Origin: Halorhabdus tiamatea SARL4B | GTDB taxonomy: Archaea; Halobacteriota; Halobacteria; Halobacteriales; Haloarculaceae | Assembly (NCBI RefSeq): GCF_000470655.1 | Contig: NC_021921.1 | Coordinates: forward strand, 1,302,001 to 1,366,000 | Length of the DNA stretch: 64,000 nucleotides | Reading direction: 5' to 3' | Shown: positions 21,288-58,264 of the stretch, piece by piece | Layout: each line of letters opens with the position of its first letter | Numbering within the stretch: position 1 is the first letter of the stretch | The notes under the pieces: model-generated | Told to the model about the DNA's origin: nothing | The model's input: only the letters and a program-made list of their open reading frames with translations | The model's database searches: none | Program-made: the position numbers and the translations under genes

Positions 21288-21354
21288 ACGACACGCTTGG
21301 GCAGTGGCGACCTTGGCGCTTTCCGTTCGCCGAATGTTTCCACGGAGAGGAGCA

Positions 21355-22080
21355 TCAGTCTCCGAGCACGGACGTGAGGTTCGGATCGCGATACGGCGAC
21401 CGCCCGAGCACCGCGCCGTGGAGGTCCTGCTCGTCGAGTTGGGCGTCGAGGACACGTTCGAGCCGGTTGACGGCCGTCGTGTCCAGGTCGTAGACCTCGA
21501 GCAACCGCTGAAAGTGCGACTCGTCAGTGATCGAGGAGAAGAGGTCGTATAAGGACGCCATCTCGTCGGGCGAGAGCGCGGCGAGTCGCTCCTCGTCGTC
21601 CAGCCCGAGGAACCGCCGGCGTTCGGCGTCGACCACATGGCGGATGACCACCAGCGCGACCTTCGGGATGGCTCGCTGGCTCCCGAAGGCCGTCAGGTCG
21701 ATCCCGGTCACGATCCCGAGGACGCGATCGCGCTCCCAGGGCGTCAGATCGAGGGCGTTACACAGCGCCTGAGTGATGCGAGCTTTGTCGAGGCGGTGCA
21801 TCCGCTCGGCGTGACCCTGCATGGCCGGATGTTGCTCGTCGTGAAGCCGACGGATTCGCTCCCCGGGGTCGTCCTCGGGGTTCTCGGCGCGCCCGATCCG
21901 GGTCGCTCCCGGCGTGATCACGTCCCACTGCCGGGTCGTGGCGTCCCGCGTGGCTTCCGCCCGCGACAGCGTCCCGTCCCCCGGTTTCGTCGAGACTTCG
22001 CGATCCTCGCGCCACTCCCGGCGCTCGCGGCCGGCCGGTTCCCGAATGCGATCGTCCCCCTGCTCGCCAGCGTCGTCCAT
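21355..22080 (-). CDS. DNA-directed RNA polymerase subunit epsilon-like protein (halobacterial)
   Basis: A 241-residue charged protein. After a disordered N-terminus of about 50 residues comes TRQWDVITPGATRIGRAE, then HAERMHRLDKARITQALCNALDLTPWERDR and FGSQRAIPKVALVVIRHVVDAERRR. From memory these match the protein called RNA polymerase epsilon in Halobacteria, a group-specific subunit whose role is unclear. Homology to other polymerase subunits is not evident. Its promoter is nearly identical to that of serS in this window, which fits a housekeeping, growth-linked role. Confidence 0.65.
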   Translation of the reverse strand: MDDAGEQGDDRIREPAGRERREWREDREVSTKPGDGTLSRAEATRDATTRQWDVITPGATRIGRAENPEDDPGERIRRLHDEQHPAMQGHAERMHRLDKARITQALCNALDLTPWERDRVLGIVTGIDLTAFGSQRAIPKVALVVIRHVVDAERRRFLGLDDEERLAALSPDEMASLYDLFSSITDESHFQRLLEVYDLDTTAVNRLERVLDAQLDEQDLHGAVLGRSPYRDPNLTSVLGD

Positions 22081-22154
22081 TACCCCAACAGTCGGCGCTA
22101 CGGACAGTTGAATCCACTGGCTCGGGACAGTCCCGCGGGAAAGACGTCGAAATT

Positions 22155-22207
22155 GGTCCGCCAGAAATCCCGTCTATATATTCACCTTGTAACCAGAGGC
22201 ACTTAAA
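22155..22207 (-). promoter_or_regulatory. promoter of the RNA polymerase epsilon gene, shared block with serS
   Basis: The minus strand has the TATA-like CTTTAAGTG and then CCTCTGGTTACAAGGT and ATATAGACGGG, about 90-125 bases before the start codon at 22080. The same block, in the same orientation relative to its gene, occurs at 25263-25312 before serS. The conserved part covers the TATA box, the spacer and the expected start of the transcript. Confidence 0.7.
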
Positions 22208-22230
22208 GCGAGTCGGCGATCGGCCGTCGG

Positions 22231-22815
22231 TCAGAAATCACCCAGTTCGGCCTGGCCGCCGTCGCCCGTCAGGTCGGCGGCCTGCTGGATCGTCCGCTCG
22301 AAGGTCTCGCGCTGACTCCGGTCGTAGAGCGTCGCGGCCGGGTGGACACAGACGAGGACCCGCCGTCGTGTGCCGTCGATCTCGATCTCCTCGATCGAAC
22401 CGGCCTCGCCGGTGACGGCTAGTTCTCGGCCCAACAGATGTTCGCCCGGCACCTTCCCGAGCGTGACGATCACCGCGGGATCGACCAGGTCGATCTCCCG
22501 GTCGAGGTAGGGCCGACAGTTCGATCGCTCCTCGGCAGTCGGATCGCGGTTCTCGGGCGGTCGACACCGCACGCAGTTGGTGATCCGGACGTCCGCCCGC
22601 GAGAGGCCGGCGTCCCGCAGCGCGTCGTCGAGGACCGTCCCGCTGCGGCCGACGAAGGGTTCACCCTGCTGATCCTCGCGCTCGCCCGGGGCTTCGCCGA
22701 CGAAGAGGAGATCGGCGTCGTCTGGGCCGACGCCGTCGACGATCCGCGACCGGGAGGCGACGAGGTCCGAACACTGCTTGCAGCCCTCGACCGAGAGTCC
22801 GTCCATGTGCTCCAT
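22231..22815 (-). CDS. family 4 (4Fe-4S) uracil-DNA glycosylase
   Basis: A 194-residue protein. Cys12 and Cys15 (GCKQC) begin the iron-sulfur cluster, and two more cysteines lie in NCVRCRPP and NCRPYL. The active-site motif is GEAPGEREDQQGEPFVG, and HPAATL closes the DNA-binding loop. It removes uracil from DNA as the first step of base excision repair. The start is ATG 22815 (three residues before the alternative at 22806). It runs in the same direction as the DUF99 gene, with a gap of 35 bases. Confidence 0.92.
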   Translation of the reverse strand: MEHMDGLSVEGCKQCSDLVASRSRIVDGVGPDDADLLFVGEAPGEREDQQGEPFVGRSGTVLDDALRDAGLSRADVRITNCVRCRPPENRDPTAEERSNCRPYLDREIDLVDPAVIVTLGKVPGEHLLGRELAVTGEAGSIEEIEIDGTRRRVLVCVHPAATLYDRSQRETFERTIQQAADLTGDGGQAELGDF

Positions 22816-22850
22816 GCCCGAGCCTGCGGGCCGAGCCCGCAAAAACGTCG

Positions 22851-23414
22851 TTATCGCTTGGCGGAATCGAACGCCCCATCGGCGGCGCGGGCGGCCAGTC
22901 GCGCGACCCGCAACGGTTCGGGTCGGCCTCCCTCCGGCGTGAACGCCCGGACGACTTCGCGAGCCTCGCCCGCGTCACAGCCCACACTCCGGACGAAGAC
23001 CGTCTCGTCGTCGACCGAGACGCGCTCACGCTCCGGTTGGGCGCGGTACGTATCGAGCCGCCAGGCGAGGGCCTCCCCGGAAAACTCCTCGCGCAACGTC
23101 GGTTCCAGTCCCTCGCTCTCCTCGAAGGTGATCGAGAGCACCGGCAGTCCAGTTTCGTCGTGGATTCGGTGGAGGTCGATCACGTTGAACCACGCCGGCG
23201 CGATCCCGGCGACGAGGAGAAGCCGGACGTCCGGGCGATCTAGTCGGTCGACCATCTCGACGATGGCGTCGGTCGCGTCGCTTCCGCCCACGGCGCAGGA
23301 CCCGAAAACGAAGCCGTCGGTGACGCGACTCGCGCGGACGACTGCGCCCGCGAGCGTACTCGAATCACCGGTATAGGACTCGGCGACCCCGAGGGCGCGA
23401 ACCCCCGATTTCAC
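22851..23414 (-). CDS. DUF99 family protein (endonuclease dU type)
   Basis: A 187-residue protein with the family start VRALGVAESY, the central VRLLLVAGIAPAWFNVIDLHRIHDETGLPVLSITFEE (the DUF99 core) and a C-terminal VRSVGCDAGEAREVV. The Pyrococcus homologue is an endonuclease that cuts DNA at deoxyuridine. Being next to the uracil-DNA glycosylase gene supports a role in uracil repair. It starts with ATG at 23414, one base from the stop of the small gene upstream. Confidence 0.87.
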   Translation of the reverse strand: MKSGVRALGVAESYTGDSSTLAGAVVRASRVTDGFVFGSCAVGGSDATDAIVEMVDRLDRPDVRLLLVAGIAPAWFNVIDLHRIHDETGLPVLSITFEESEGLEPTLREEFSGEALAWRLDTYRAQPERERVSVDDETVFVRSVGCDAGEAREVVRAFTPEGGRPEPLRVARLAARAADGAFDSAKR

Positions 23415-23415
23415 G

Positions 23416-23595
23416 TCAGGTGTTCTCCTTGATGTCCGATAGCTGGTCGATCAGTTCGTCGTTCGACGCCGTGAACTCGAACTCGACGTCGCCGTCGTGG
23501 GTGTTCTCGGCGGCGTTGACCCCGTCATCGTCGTCAAAATCAGCGTCCAGGTCTTGATTCTCCTGTTCTGATTCGTCGTAGCTCCCAAACCCCAT
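23416..23595 (-). CDS. small acidic haloarchaeal protein (DUF5786-like)
   Basis: A 59-residue protein starting MGFGSYDESEQENQ and ending in a helix TASNDELIDQLSDIKENT. It has very high Asp/Glu content with a DDDDG stretch. The sequence matches my memory of a conserved small haloarchaeal family of unknown function. It is one base from the DUF99 gene and in the same direction, so it is probably co-transcribed with the uracil-repair genes. Confidence 0.75.
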   Translation of the reverse strand: MGFGSYDESEQENQDLDADFDDDDGVNAAENTHDGDVEFEFTASNDELIDQLSDIKENT

Positions 23596-23693
23596 GTCGT
23601 CTGTGAATAGGGGGTTCGTGGTGAAAAATCACACGCTACTCGCTCACACCCGCCACCGCCAGACTCAACAGGATACTCCCCCCAGAGACGACC

Positions 23694-24299
23694 ATGGACG
23701 TACACAACGTGACGGCCGACGCGGAGACCTTCACCGCGAACGTCTACCTGACGACCGGCGACCGACCGGCGCTCGTCGACGCCGGCGCGATGGACGGCGT
23801 CGTCGACGTGATCCGCGAGTACACTGACGAGCTGGACAGCGTCGTGTTGACCCACCAGCACGGCGACCACGTCGCCCAACTCGATGCGGTCCTCGACGCT
23901 TTCGACGCCGAGGTGTACGCCTACGCCGACCACCCCCGGCGAACGGAAGCACTCGGCGACGGCGACACCCTCCAGATCGGCGACGAGGACTTCGAGGTCG
24001 TCTACACGCCGGGCCACGCCGACGATCACGTCTCGCTGGTCAGCGAGAGCAGCCTGTTTTCGGGCGACGTCGTCGTCCACGACGACGGGGCCTTCGAGGG
24101 CGGGAGTTTCGGCCGGACCGACAACCCCGGCCAGTCCCGTGAACGCCTCATCGAGAGCATCCGGGAGCTTCTCGGTCGAATGCCGGAGACCGTCGAGCAC
24201 ATGTACAGCGGCCACGGCGGCGTCTTCCACGGCGACGTCCGGGACATCGTCGAGACGGCGCTGGAACGAGCTGAGAGACGGGAGCCGAAGTACGATTGA
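23694..24299 (+). CDS. MBL-fold metallo-hydrolase (glyoxalase II-like)
   Basis: A 201-residue metallo-beta-lactamase fold. The first metal site is THQHGDHVAQLD (His54, His56, Asp58, His59), the second part is TPGHADDH, then an acid in SGDVVVHDDG and the last His in MYSGHGG. Such proteins hydrolyse thioesters or similar bonds with one or two zinc ions. The substrate is unknown. It diverges from the small acidic gene and converges with hepT. Confidence 0.9.
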   Translation: MDVHNVTADAETFTANVYLTTGDRPALVDAGAMDGVVDVIREYTDELDSVVLTHQHGDHVAQLDAVLDAFDAEVYAYADHPRRTEALGDGDTLQIGDEDFEVVYTPGHADDHVSLVSESSLFSGDVVVHDDGAFEGGSFGRTDNPGQSRERLIESIRELLGRMPETVEHMYSGHGGVFHGDVRDIVETALERAERREPKYD

Positions 24300-24315
24300 G
24301 GGGAAGCGCCGACCG

Positions 24316-24744
24316 TCACTTGCTGTCTCGGACCCACTCGGCGATCTGACGGCTATAGCTATCGTACACGTCGAGGCCGGTCCGGAGCGTTTCGTACACT
24401 TCTTCGGGGTCGATGCGCCCGTACTCGTGTGCGAGGACGTTTCTGAACCCGATTGCGGTGACGAGCGTCATCATCGTCTCGTCGTCGATGACGGCGTGCT
24501 CGCACAGGATGCGGACGGCCTCTTTGGAAGTGTTCCCGTCGTACGCGAAATCCCGCGTGGCGACGTGCTGGGCCAGATCCGCACTCGCCTGAATCGCATT
24601 CTCGAACATGCGTTCGACGGCACGCTGCTCGGTCGTACTCCCGAGAAACTCACGGCGGGACAGCGATTCTCGCTTCTCGATCAACTCGCCGTGGTACTGC
24701 TCGATCTGTTCGAGTTTGACCGCGACGACGCGTTCGTCAGCCAC
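24316..24744 (-). CDS. hepT: HepT-like toxin (DUF86, HEPN domain)
   Basis: A 142-residue all-helical HEPN protein. The catalytic RNase motif is RNVLAHEY: Arg101, His106 and Tyr108 fit Rx4HxY. It begins with GTG inside the 3' end of mntA (8-base overlap), so the pair is coupled. HepT acts as an RNase toxin that is silenced when MntA AMPylates its Tyr residue. Conserved active-site residues are all present, so it looks intact. Confidence 0.9.
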   Translation of the reverse strand: MADERVVAVKLEQIEQYHGELIEKRESLSRREFLGSTTEQRAVERMFENAIQASADLAQHVATRDFAYDGNTSKEAVRILCEHAVIDDETMMTLVTAIGFRNVLAHEYGRIDPEEVYETLRTGLDVYDSYSRQIAEWVRDSK

Positions 24745-25168
24745 GCAGTCCGTCCTCCGCGATCCTGTCGATGACGTCACGCTGGCGGCGACGAAGCGGC
24801 TCGCGCTCCTCGGCGAACGTCGCCTCGACGTCCGCTTTGAACCGTTCGAACGCGTCGCGGTCGCCACAGACAAAGCTCCCGTTGACCGCGTCGTTTCTGA
24901 CGGCTATGGGAAGGGTTTCGATATCGGAGATGTCGACAAAGGGACCCTCCTCACGCTGGAGGGTTCCCGACAGAAAGCACTGCTTCTCGAAACGATCGTG
25001 GTCCGATAGTTCGTCCACGAACTTGACTGCGAGGTCGAGATCGGACGTGTCAGTCGACTCCCCAGTGACTCGTGATCCGAACGCCACGACAAACTCGACA
25101 TCGGAATCAGAGCAGATGGACTCTTCGAAGTCCTCGAACCCCCGTTTCCGGCCATCCTCGACCGCCAT
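24737..25168 (-). CDS. mntA: MntA-like nucleotidyltransferase antitoxin
   Basis: A 143-residue minimal nucleotidyltransferase. The motif GSx10DxD is complete (Gly31, Ser32, Asp43, Asp45 in FGSRVTGESTDTSDLDLAV). It is the first gene of the HepT/MntA pair, transcribed away from serS. MntA neutralises HepT by adding AMP groups from ATP. A DUF4111-like or tRNA-modifying role is unlikely given the partner. Confidence 0.9.
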   Translation of the reverse strand: MAVEDGRKRGFEDFEESICSDSDVEFVVAFGSRVTGESTDTSDLDLAVKFVDELSDHDRFEKQCFLSGTLQREEGPFVDISDIETLPIAVRNDAVNGSFVCGDRDAFERFKADVEATFAEEREPLRRRQRDVIDRIAEDGLRG

Positions 25169-25262
25169 ATCTTTATGATCGACGTATCGTCACAAAAGAA
25201 TTCCGGCGAATCGCCCGGTCGAACTGTCTGTGATCCTCCTCGCAGCTATCACCGACCGCGTT

Positions 25263-25312
25263 TTAAGTACCTCTGGTTACAAGGTAGAGATATAGACGGG
25301 GTTTCTCCGGGA
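25263..25312 (+). promoter_or_regulatory. serS promoter, shared block with the RNA polymerase epsilon gene
   Basis: TTTTAAGTACC (TATA-like) is followed by CTCTGGTTACAAGGT and ATATAGACGGGGTTTCT. Over about 45 bases only a few differ from the minus-strand block at 22155-22207. Its distance to the start codon of serS (about 85-130 bases) is close to that at the other copy, so both mRNAs should have leaders of about 90-100 bases. Confidence 0.7.
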
Positions 25313-25392
25313 CGCCGATCGGCGAGCGGGTGCTGTCGCCGGCAGACGGCCAGAGCGATACGGTTTTGAGACGCCACCGAGAAATGGCGTCC

Positions 25393-26748
25393 ATGTTATC
25401 ACGCCAGTACGTCCGCGAGCACCCCGAGGAGGTTCGAGAGACCCTCGCGGCTCGCGGCGTCGAAGACGTCGATCTCGACGCGATCCTGGAGATCGACGAG
25501 GAGTGGCGCGAGCTGAAAGCCCGCGGCGACGACCTGCGACACGACCGCAACGAGGTCTCCTCGAAGATCGGCGAGCTCAAACAAGCAGGTGACGAGGAAG
25601 CCGCCCAAGAGGCCATCGAGCGTTCTCAGGAACTCAAAGAGGAACTCCAGGACGTCGAGGAACGCGCCGACGAACTCGAAGCCGAACTCGAAGCGCGACT
25701 GCTGGAGATTCCGAACATTCCCCAAGAGGGCGTTCCCGAGGGCGAGGACGAGAGCGACAACGTCGAAACGCGACGGTGGGGCTTCGACGATATGCGGGAC
25801 CTCCCGGCGGACGTCACACCGCACTACGACCTCGGCGAGGAACTCGACATCCTGGACTTCGACCGCGGGGCGAAAGTCTCGGGTGGCGGCTTCTACTTCC
25901 TCAAAGGCGACGCCGCACGCCTCGAACACGCGCTCATCCAGTTCATGCGGGACATCCACCGCGAGCAGGGCTACTCGGAAGTGTTCCCGCCGATCCCGGT
26001 CTCGAGTGAATCGATGACCGGCACCGGGCAACTCCCCAAGTTCGCCGACGACGCCTACAAACTCGAAGACGAAGACCTCTGGCTGTGCCCGACGGCGGAG
26101 GTTCCGGTGACGAACATGTACCGCGACGAGATCCTGCTCGACGACGACCTCCCGCTGAAACACCAGGCCTACACGCCCAACTTCCGCCAGGAGGCCGGCG
26201 AGCACGGCACCGAGACCCGTGGGATCGTCCGCGTCCACCAGTTCAACAAGGTCGAGCTGGTCAACTTCGTCGAACCCGAAGGGAGCGACGACCGCCTCGA
26301 CGGACTCCTCGAGGAAGCAGAGGAAGTCCTCAAGCGCCTGGAACTCCCCTATCGCGTGCTCGAGCTCTGTACCGGGGATCTGACCTTCGCCTCGGCGAAG
26401 ACCTACGACATCGAGGTGTGGGCACCGGGCGATGACATGGAAGACGGACCGGCCGAAGGCGGACGGTGGCTCGAAGTCTCTTCAGCCTCGAACTTCGAGG
26501 ACTTCCAGGCCCGGCGGGCCGGCATCCGGTATCGGCCTGAGCGCCACGAATCCGCGGAGTACCTCCACACACTCAACGCCTCAGGCGTGGCGCTGCCGCG
26601 CGTGCTCGTGGCGATCTTGGAGTACTACCAGAACGACGACGGGACGGTGACGGTGCCGGAAGCACTCCGTCCCTATCTCGGTGGCCAGGAACACATCGAG
26701 GGCCATGATCCAGTCGGCGAGAGCGCGCTGGGTGCCGGCGAACGCTGA
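25393..26748 (+). CDS. serS: seryl-tRNA synthetase
   Basis: A 451-residue class II synthetase of the common (not methanogenic) type. Residues 30-100 form the antiparallel coiled-coil arm that holds tRNA-Ser (REHPEEVRETLAARGVED then RNEVSSKIGELKQAG). Motif 2 is NFRQEAGEHGTETRGIVRVHQF and motif 3 is NASGVALPRVLVAILEYY. ATG 25393 is chosen because the protein family begins MLxRxYVRExPEE; ATG 25384 is three codons upstream. It faces a conserved promoter block. Confidence 0.95.
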   Translation: MLSRQYVREHPEEVRETLAARGVEDVDLDAILEIDEEWRELKARGDDLRHDRNEVSSKIGELKQAGDEEAAQEAIERSQELKEELQDVEERADELEAELEARLLEIPNIPQEGVPEGEDESDNVETRRWGFDDMRDLPADVTPHYDLGEELDILDFDRGAKVSGGGFYFLKGDAARLEHALIQFMRDIHREQGYSEVFPPIPVSSESMTGTGQLPKFADDAYKLEDEDLWLCPTAEVPVTNMYRDEILLDDDLPLKHQAYTPNFRQEAGEHGTETRGIVRVHQFNKVELVNFVEPEGSDDRLDGLLEEAEEVLKRLELPYRVLELCTGDLTFASAKTYDIEVWAPGDDMEDGPAEGGRWLEVSSASNFEDFQARRAGIRYRPERHESAEYLHTLNASGVALPRVLVAILEYYQNDDGTVTVPEALRPYLGGQEHIEGHDPVGESALGAGER

Positions 26749-26772
26749 TCAGCACGCGACGCCGCGGACGGC

Positions 26773-27138
26773 TCACCACTCGACGCTGAGTCGCCCGTCG
26801 CCGTGGCGATCGGGCGCGATCTCCTCGTCGGTCCGGCGGTCGATGACGTGGATCACGCCGCGGCCCTTCTTCGCGGGACAGCTCTCGGCTGCCCGGACGT
26901 GATGGTCCAGGTCGTCCGCCCCGACGTAGTAGGTGCTGGGCCGCGCCAGACCGGTTTCGAGATCCAGTTCCCAATCCGGAGATTCGGCGGCGCACTTCCC
27001 GGCACCGAAACACCGGTTGGCCTCGAAGATGATCTTGTACGGCTTGGCCTCAATCGGCGGTCCGTCATCCCCGCCGACGTCGCTTGGCCGGATCACGTCG
27101 CCATCGTTGGACGGTTCCAGGCTCTCATCGCCGCCCAT
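26773..27138 (-). CDS. single-cluster ferredoxin of the siroheme operon
   Basis: A 121-residue protein. After about 45 disordered residues comes YKIIFEANRCFGAGKCAAESPDWELD and later AAESCPAKKGRGVIHVI. The spacing (Cx5C, then CP) is that of 3Fe-4S or 4Fe-4S ferredoxins that feed P450 and sulfite/nitrite reductases. It is the last gene of the nirA operon, one base after trpD2-like, so it is the probable electron donor to the reductase. Confidence 0.8.
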   Translation of the reverse strand: MGGDESLEPSNDGDVIRPSDVGGDDGPPIEAKPYKIIFEANRCFGAGKCAAESPDWELDLETGLARPSTYYVGADDLDHHVRAAESCPAKKGRGVIHVIDRRTDEEIAPDRHGDGRLSVEW

Positions 27139-55985: not shown

Positions 55986-57457
<1,472 letters not shown>

Positions 57458-57554
57458 GTCTCCCCGGAATGGGGAGGGTTAGGCGGGATGACACCCCAAA
57501 GGGGTGTCGTCGCTATCGTAAGCACGTTCGCTGACACCCCAGTCGGGTGTCACC

Positions 57555-57568
57555 GAACTACCAGGGCT
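57555..57568 (-). other. 16S rRNA processing stem, 5' strand
   Basis: Partner of 55904-55917, about 100 bases upstream of the mature 16S 5' end. A second hairpin (ACACCCC/GGGGTGT pairs at 57490-57550) lies between. Confidence 0.72.
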
Positions 57569-57645
57569 AACATCAGATCCCATCTATACGGCGGACCGCA
57601 GGGGTGGAATCCTCATGTCTTTCCGGACCCGAACATACACCGAGA

Positions 57646-57665
57646 GAGGGTATAAACCCTTCGAA
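57646..57665 (-). promoter_or_regulatory. rRNA operon promoter, proximal
   Basis: The minus strand reads TTCGAAGGGTTTATACCCTC: the upstream TTCGA box and the TATA box TTTATA, as in other halobacterial rRNA promoters. It lies about 190 bases before 16S. Confidence 0.75.
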
Positions 57666-57746
57666 CCGGCGTGAGTCGAGACCGGGTGCGGCCGGGGCGA
57701 TCCGTGCCCCGTCCGAACCACGTTCGTATTCAATCCGAAATGCCCT

Positions 57747-57773
57747 GTTACACTTAAGGGCATCGGATCGAAT
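57747..57773 (-). promoter_or_regulatory. rRNA operon promoter, middle
   Basis: The minus strand has TTCGATCCGATGCCCTTAAG then TGTAAC, with the TTCGA box and a CTTAAGTG TATA element. It resembles the spacer promoter at 55776-55801. Confidence 0.7.
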
Positions 57774-57850
57774 CGCACCACGCGAGTGGCGCGACGCGGC
57801 CGGAGGGGCGCCGTTCGCCCTTCGCCGCTGCGTATCTTCGAAGATGGGAA

Positions 57851-57872
57851 GTAATTACTTAAACCCGTCGAA
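57851..57872 (-). promoter_or_regulatory. rRNA operon promoter, distal
   Basis: The minus strand reads TTCGACGGGTTTAAGTAATT then AC, with the strongest match to the halobacterial TTCGAC-n-TTTAAGTA pattern. It lies about 400 bases upstream of 16S. Confidence 0.75.
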
Positions 57873-58264
57873 GGAGACCCGCCACGTCATGCGATTACAA
57901 GCGGGTCGTGATGTCGTACCGTGACATGGAGGGAGGGCCTCGTCAGCAGACCCACAAACCCCACAGAACGCGGAGTACATGTTACGCGGGGAGGTAAATA
58001 GGTCATACAGGAGTCGCTCACGTGGCTGGCAACCGTTCGCGGACACGAGAAATATCACCCAGTCACCGAAGCCACTGCCGAGGTTCAAGGGGTGTTCTGA
58101 CCAGAGGAAATGTCGCGCGGCCGGAGGTCGGGTGGTCATCCCGCGCCTGTTGCGTCAGGTCTCCCCGAGTGGAAGCCGCGCATCGGCGCTTGACTTGCAG
58201 GACAGTAGAGACTATCGACTCTCAACGACCGTCGAAAAGAGACTCTGCGGGATGGATAACCGCG
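57873..58264. other. upstream region of the rRNA operon, no gene seen
   Basis: This 392-base stretch between the distal promoter and the MC1 gene has no convincing reading frame. On the minus strand near 57985-58010 there is an AT-rich CTATTTACC that could be one more weak promoter. Nothing else was recognised. Confidence 0.5.

Follow-up and report, generated by a model that had tools for sequence, protein, structure and literature searches.

A promoter-like box of about 40 bases accompanies the gene for RNA polymerase subunit epsilon (rpoeps) across haloarchaea. It was met in a stretch of 64,000 nucleotides (nt) of the Halorhabdus tiamatea SARL4B genome (contig NC_021921.1, positions 1,302,001 to 1,366,000; hereafter the window), where near-identical copies stand ahead of rpoeps and of the seryl-tRNA synthetase gene serS. 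Four things are observed directly: the box, how it is conserved, its almost exclusive co-occurrence with rpoeps, and the co-variation of its copies within a genome. On sequence grounds it appears secure that the copies represent a conserved haloarchaeal promoter class, which both phylogeny and co-variation tie to the epsilon gene. Epsilon, known since 1983 as an additional component that enables the Halobacterium polymerase to transcribe native DNA, still has a biological relevance described as "enigmatic" (PMC8305020). With a promoter box that appears and disappears together with its gene throughout the class, epsilon gains a concrete candidate job and a short target list in each species.

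Two copies of the box in the window

The first-pass annotation of the window described near-identical blocks ahead of rpoeps and serS, on opposite strands and at similar distance from and orientation to their genes. This is borne out by a 55-nt inverted repeat, the top-scoring pair of the region, whose arms (22156-22210 and 25259-25313) are 84% complementary. The 16-mer CCTCTGGTTACAAGGT has exactly two occurrences in the window at up to three mismatches, against a chance mean of 0.22, and in the entire 3.15-Mb genome there are just two exact copies of the 14-mer CTCTGGTTACAAGG. Since ATATAGACGGG alone is unremarkable, with 9 matches against 8.1 expected at two mismatches, the evidence rests on the whole block. 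The copies begin about 122-131 nt ahead of the start codon, each oriented toward its gene (Table 1). The observation of two look-alike promoters was right, and understated.

Conservation ahead of rpoeps and within Halorhabdus

The epsilon protein of the window matches four RefSeq entries for DNA-directed RNA polymerase subunit epsilon at 59-61% identity, with 86-87% of the query aligned; in Halobacterium the family is called rpoeps (PMC8305020). The relatives found for rpoeps put the window in Halorhabdus or very close to it. The box stands ahead of rpoeps in most families of haloarchaea. A scan for relatives of rpoeps gave 55 named loci spread over several of these families, and most of them carry the box ahead of rpoeps in the same orientation, as one to five tandem copies 110-150 nt apart; the genera include Halosimplex, Natronococcus, Natrinema, Natronorubrum, Halococcus, Halorussus and Haloarchaeobius. 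One genus (g3) has boxes, none of them ahead of its rpoeps. The pattern TTTAAGTNNYTCTNGNNNNAANGK was matched in 74 of 194 genomes of the class, many with several sites, while the reversed pattern gave a single match in the same search.

Boxes are present at this locus in all seven Halorhabdus genomes (consensus CTTTAAGTGCYTCTGGTTACAAGGTGAAGATATAGACGGGGTTTCT), and those checked further carry them ahead of both rpoeps and serS. Tandem pairs occur: genome G005 has two boxes 110 nt apart ahead of rpoeps, and genome G002 has a pair spaced by 118 nt. As the serS copy is present in every Halorhabdus genome examined, the suggestion of a recent promoter duplication finds no support; on sequence comparison the copy is a genus-wide addition, old within Halorhabdus. 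The earlier annotation had also considered that the motif might not be conserved ahead of these genes in relatives, which is not so for rpoeps and is so for serS outside the genus.

Co-occurrence of the box with rpoeps

The exact box was found in 149 of 160 genomes with rpoeps and in 2 of 231 without it, 391 genomes in all. In the first 194, where rpoeps was called present at E < 1e-50, the counts were 73/80 and 1/114 (p 6e-44). At genus level they were 28/30 and 1/35 (p 6e-15), and the split also holds inside families of mixed state. A further 197 genomes, added after the hypothesis was formed, gave 76/80 and 1/117 (p 2e-48); the finding of the first half held again in the second. In one genus (g48), rpoeps is present in two of six members, and only those two have boxes. 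The family of Haloferax volcanii, as sampled, almost wholly lacks both rpoeps and the box.

The few discordant genomes are of several kinds. In the genome of the first set with a box only (G115), an epsilon paralog adjoins the box, and its counterpart in the second set is an incomplete assembly whose contig breaks right past the box cluster. Three of the four genomes of the second set with rpoeps only have a box with two mismatches directly ahead of rpoeps. The association also extends to copies whose link to rpoeps is not built in by construction: boxes away from rpoeps were found in at least 26 of 80 genomes with rpoeps and in none of 114 without (p 6e-12).

Co-variation of copies within a genome

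Co-variation was measured on 180 boxes from 54 genomes, at positions 24-40, which the search pattern does not fix. Copies of one genome are 73-79% identical there (73% for rpoeps against another locus), and rpoeps copies of different genera only 46-57%, while the sequence flanking the box is ~27% identical, which is the chance level. Each genus has a box dialect of its own, such as CTCGTCACAACGG...TAGTAAGAGG in Halosimplex and CTGGCGATAAGG...ATATAGACGG in Halocatena. That copies change together without their flanks is what a single shared reader would lead one to expect. Of the common control of translation and transcription genes proposed in the first-pass annotation, the shared trans-acting factor is well supported, by conservation at rpoeps, by co-variation within genomes and by near-restriction to genomes with rpoeps. 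The link between translation and transcription genes is not general, for serS is a box target only in Halorhabdus, and elsewhere other genes or none stand behind the box.

Anatomy of the box

The consensus of the box is TTTAAGTNN[CT]TCT[CG]GNNNNAAGGTNNAGATA, ~40 bases. In a genus-weighted profile, TTTAAGT (invariant because the search pattern demands it) is followed by NN-Y-T-C-T-S-G----A-C-A-A-G-G and then by AG-M-T-A near the expected start. The TA at profile positions 29/30 is conserved, and information is near zero past position 38. The conserved block, at about -20 to -5, falls between TATA and the predicted start. Starts were predicted from the TATA-to-start spacing and the conserved TA in the 23-genus profile; they would give leaders of ~95 nt in the window and of ~90-150 nt generally, unusual in that 72% of transcripts are leaderless (PMC4983044).

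Canonical haloarchaeal TBP/TFB promoters combine a B recognition element (BRE), CGAAA (PMC4983044), with a TATA element TTWT and a -10 WW. The box may share with them a TATA-like TTTAAG about 26-30 nt ahead of a predicted purine start, but it differs in its tandem copies, its long predicted leaders, its strongly conserved spacer block and start region, and its missing BRE: in the genus-weighted profile the CGAAA is not present upstream, since A has a frequency of 0.00 at -3 and 0.01 at -2 and the sequence above TATA is pyrimidine-rich. The best explanation of these features is a haloarchaeal core-promoter class, which would consist of a BRE-less, TATA-like TTTAAGT, a sequence-specific downstream block and a conserved start region.

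Several other origins were considered. The tandem promoters of haloarchaeal rRNA operons are similarly spaced, ~100-150 nt apart, but kinship with them was rejected, as the spacer block is absent from the 16S rRNA promoters of the window (57457-58000, minus strand). Within that upstream region, 57457-57900 (minus strand) has several TTTAAGT, CTTAAGT and TTTATA elements with other spacer sequence. The pair of boxes was also rejected as the terminal inverted repeats of a mobile element; boxes also occur singly or in same-orientation tandems, and the genes between the window copies vary among genera. The intergenic repeats of halovirus HF2, reported to carry promoters (PMC8707807), are similar to the box in being repeated intergenic promoter sequences of a haloarchaeal system. 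A viral origin was rejected, as neither the box nor the epsilon protein matched any of 50,697 phage records. A literature search on the box sequence returned only unrelated papers.

Epsilon as the candidate reader

In Halobacterium salinarum, where rpoeps is OE_1279R, epsilon is reported to co-purify with the polymerase, and the epsilon-containing enzyme transcribes native templates efficiently (PMC8305020). It is proposed that epsilon would read the block downstream of TATA, that epsilon-containing polymerase would start preferentially at boxes, and that each lineage would have gained a small number of further targets, in Halorhabdus the serS gene. Because epsilon's own gene carries one to five boxes, rpoeps would be autoregulated. 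We judge the chances that epsilon is such an autoregulating promoter-specificity factor to be about evenly balanced; transcription start at the boxes, binding of epsilon to them and the existence and sign of autoregulation are what we infer from sequence patterns.

Bacterial alternative sigma factors have sequence-defined promoters, and the sigma gene is autoregulated. The box system resembles them in its sequence-defined promoter class, a polymerase-associated protein, the autoregulatory position of its gene, small lineage-specific regulons, and divergent paralogs with divergent boxes. It differs in being archaeal and in having no sigma homology, and recognition of the box by epsilon is a proposal. 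A second likeness is to the downstream BRE (BREd), an element that TFIIB recognises through its N-terminal cyclin repeat: the block of the box lies immediately 3' of TATA, and the epsilon model resembles that repeat. Here the block is longer and of other sequence, and epsilon has neither zinc ribbon nor second repeat, its homology being unproven.

The AlphaFold model of epsilon is all-helical, with a mean predicted local distance difference test (pLDDT) score of 73 and residues ~88-220 above 85. In a VIA-align comparison, TFIIB, Brf2, Pyrococcus TFB and cyclins were among the top 43 matches, and residues ~88-220 aligned to the N-terminal cyclin repeat of TFIIB, Brf2 and TFB with Z 9.9-11.4, at about 2.9 Å over ~98 residues for most of them. 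At the sequence level, the PF00382 cyclin repeats did not match epsilon even at E 5, a genome search with PF00382 at E up to 1 did not return rpoeps, the two CxxC motifs of an N-terminal zinc ribbon are not in the epsilon sequence, and a PDB sequence search with epsilon returned nothing useful.

Epsilon paralogs are also found on plasmids, and one of them bears the box (Halobacterium hubeiense pSTJ003). Two relatives share a divergent version, roughly TTTAAGT..GGTTNCAAYAC..AATGAAGGGAGG. The plasmid paralogs include one clade with a divergent box and a second in which a different block, TTTAAGTNNNNCGTGNACAGTAG, is shared near the gene (L212, L334, L335; L342, L344). A fuller version of the proposal would make epsilon a sigma-like specificity factor, TFB-related and with a single cyclin repeat, which reads the block below TATA, with its own gene on tandem boxes and plasmid paralogs each with their own box; we consider this plausible, if slightly doubtful.

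Several points weigh against epsilon as the reader. Co-occurrence is partly built in, because rpoeps itself bears the box, and related genomes count as independent in the Fisher tests, for which the genus-level and within-family counts correct only partly. No sense gene follows many of the distal copies, mainly those in Halocatena, where the same is true of most boxes, and distal copies could derive from the rpoeps promoter and have another factor as their reader. On the structural side, no Foldseek match reached significance (best E 0.56), chance can give helical folds a middling Z, and an epsilon profile compared with nine TFBs was not significant (P 0.28). With paralogs added, P fell to 0.009, above all 60 column shuffles, yet at a Prob of 4.5%, which is a hint only. 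The cyclin-type fold suggested by the model is therefore a lead and not a result, and sequence homology with TFB is not established. Epsilon had no credible Pfam match, so that a DNA-binding role is without independent support, and several clades of plasmid paralogs have no recognisable box.

Other explanations of the box

The main rival is a separate regulator that travels with rpoeps. The block would then serve as operator for an ordinary type of regulator that controls rpoeps and a few lineage-specific genes; from the position of the block this would probably be a repressor. Epsilon would be a mere target, and the regulator gene would track rpoeps. A site between TATA and start, where the block lies, is typical for archaeal repressors; tandem boxes would suit an operator array, and co-variation within genomes suits any trans factor. 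Such a regulator would nevertheless need to be gained and lost alongside rpoeps in many lineages, even inside one genus, the block as read from its sequence is no clear palindrome, and divergent epsilon paralogs accompany divergent boxes. We regard this explanation as a tentative one, doubtful but deserving to be taken seriously.

It is unlikely that the box has no dedicated reader and is simply the rpoeps promoter, duplicated repeatedly into intergenic DNA by recombination. Copies at gene-free positions would fit, as would the 4-10 dispersed boxes per Halocatena genome, some of which share longer flanks that arose recently (L065, L076, L075 and others), and recent local copying of the box does exist, mainly in Halocatena. 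Against duplication as a general account, most copies have unrelated flanks from the edge of the box onward although the boxes themselves are similar, exact copying of ~40 bp is otherwise hard to explain, serS copies persist in Halorhabdus, and copies ahead of GNAT and DsbA genes recur in several genomes. Least probable is an element acting at the RNA level, where the box would make the 5' end of leaders or small RNAs and the conserved part would act in the transcript. Some boxes without a sense open reading frame and the unusually long predicted leaders are compatible with it, but the greater part of the conserved box lies upstream of the predicted start, with information near zero past position 38, and a known RNA family was rejected, as Rfam gave no match up to E 1 in window 21300-26800.

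If epsilon does read the box, archaea would have a layer of promoter specificity beyond TBP and TFB paralogs, and the sequence from TATA to start, usually ignored in archaea, would be an addressable code. The association of box and epsilon offers a simple route to testing epsilon function.

Other targets and gene-free copies

Genes behind boxes include an RlaP-like nucleotidyltransferase beside rpoeps in Natrialbaceae, a DsbA gene beside rpoeps in Halobacterium, a GNAT acetyltransferase, a phosphoribosyl-pyrophosphate-synthetase-like gene and regulators. In annotated plasmids, the distance from box start to gene is 161 nt for an SfsA nuclease, 151 nt for a pyrimidine-dimer glycosylase and 207 nt for a helix-turn-helix (HTH) protein; the best plasmid matches of the box have no annotated feature beneath them in a gene table that is incomplete. 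Some boxes away from rpoeps (L355, L357, L119-L142) precede nuclease or repair genes, namely SfsA, pyrimidine-dimer glycosylase and RlaP-like genes. A tilt toward DNA and RNA repair, or a repair-related regulon, is possible from these gene identities.

The genome of the window has a third box (G000:C2:1438212, plus strand), which lies between an IMPase-like and a ComB-like gene in convergent orientation and lacks a sense open reading frame, and a degenerate fourth (C2:2752878). The third is also found between convergent genes in G005, and a similarly placed one in G006 (loci L003, L029, L081). By its position it is a candidate source of a non-coding or antisense transcript.

Features of the window

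Table 1 Box copies, predicted starts and their genes in the window.
Feature	Position	Strand	Description
Box copy A	22162..22208	-	TTTAAGT 22207-22201, ahead of the rpoeps ATG at 22080; spacer block YTCTGGTTACAAGGT to 22184; start-site region ATATAGACGGG to 22169
Box copy B	25262..25307	+	TTTAAGT 25262-25268, ahead of the serS ATG at 25384 or 25393; spacer block to 25285; start-site region ATATAGACGGG 25290-25300
Predicted rpoeps transcription start	22175..22179	-	TA about 29-30 nt past the first T of TTTAAGT; predicted leader about 97 nt
Predicted serS transcription start	25290..25294	+	Predicted leader about 90-100 nt; same basis as for copy A
rpoeps, DNA-directed RNA polymerase subunit epsilon, 241 aa	21355..22080	-	RefSeq family name
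serS, seryl-tRNA synthetase	25384..26748, start 25384 or 25393	+	TIGR00414, 490 bits

Between an MBL gene and serS lies a HepT/MntA-type toxin-antitoxin pair (NF047751, NF047752; window 24316-25168). This pair is likely a lineage-specific insertion, because the interval between the boxes is shorter in other Halorhabdus genomes.

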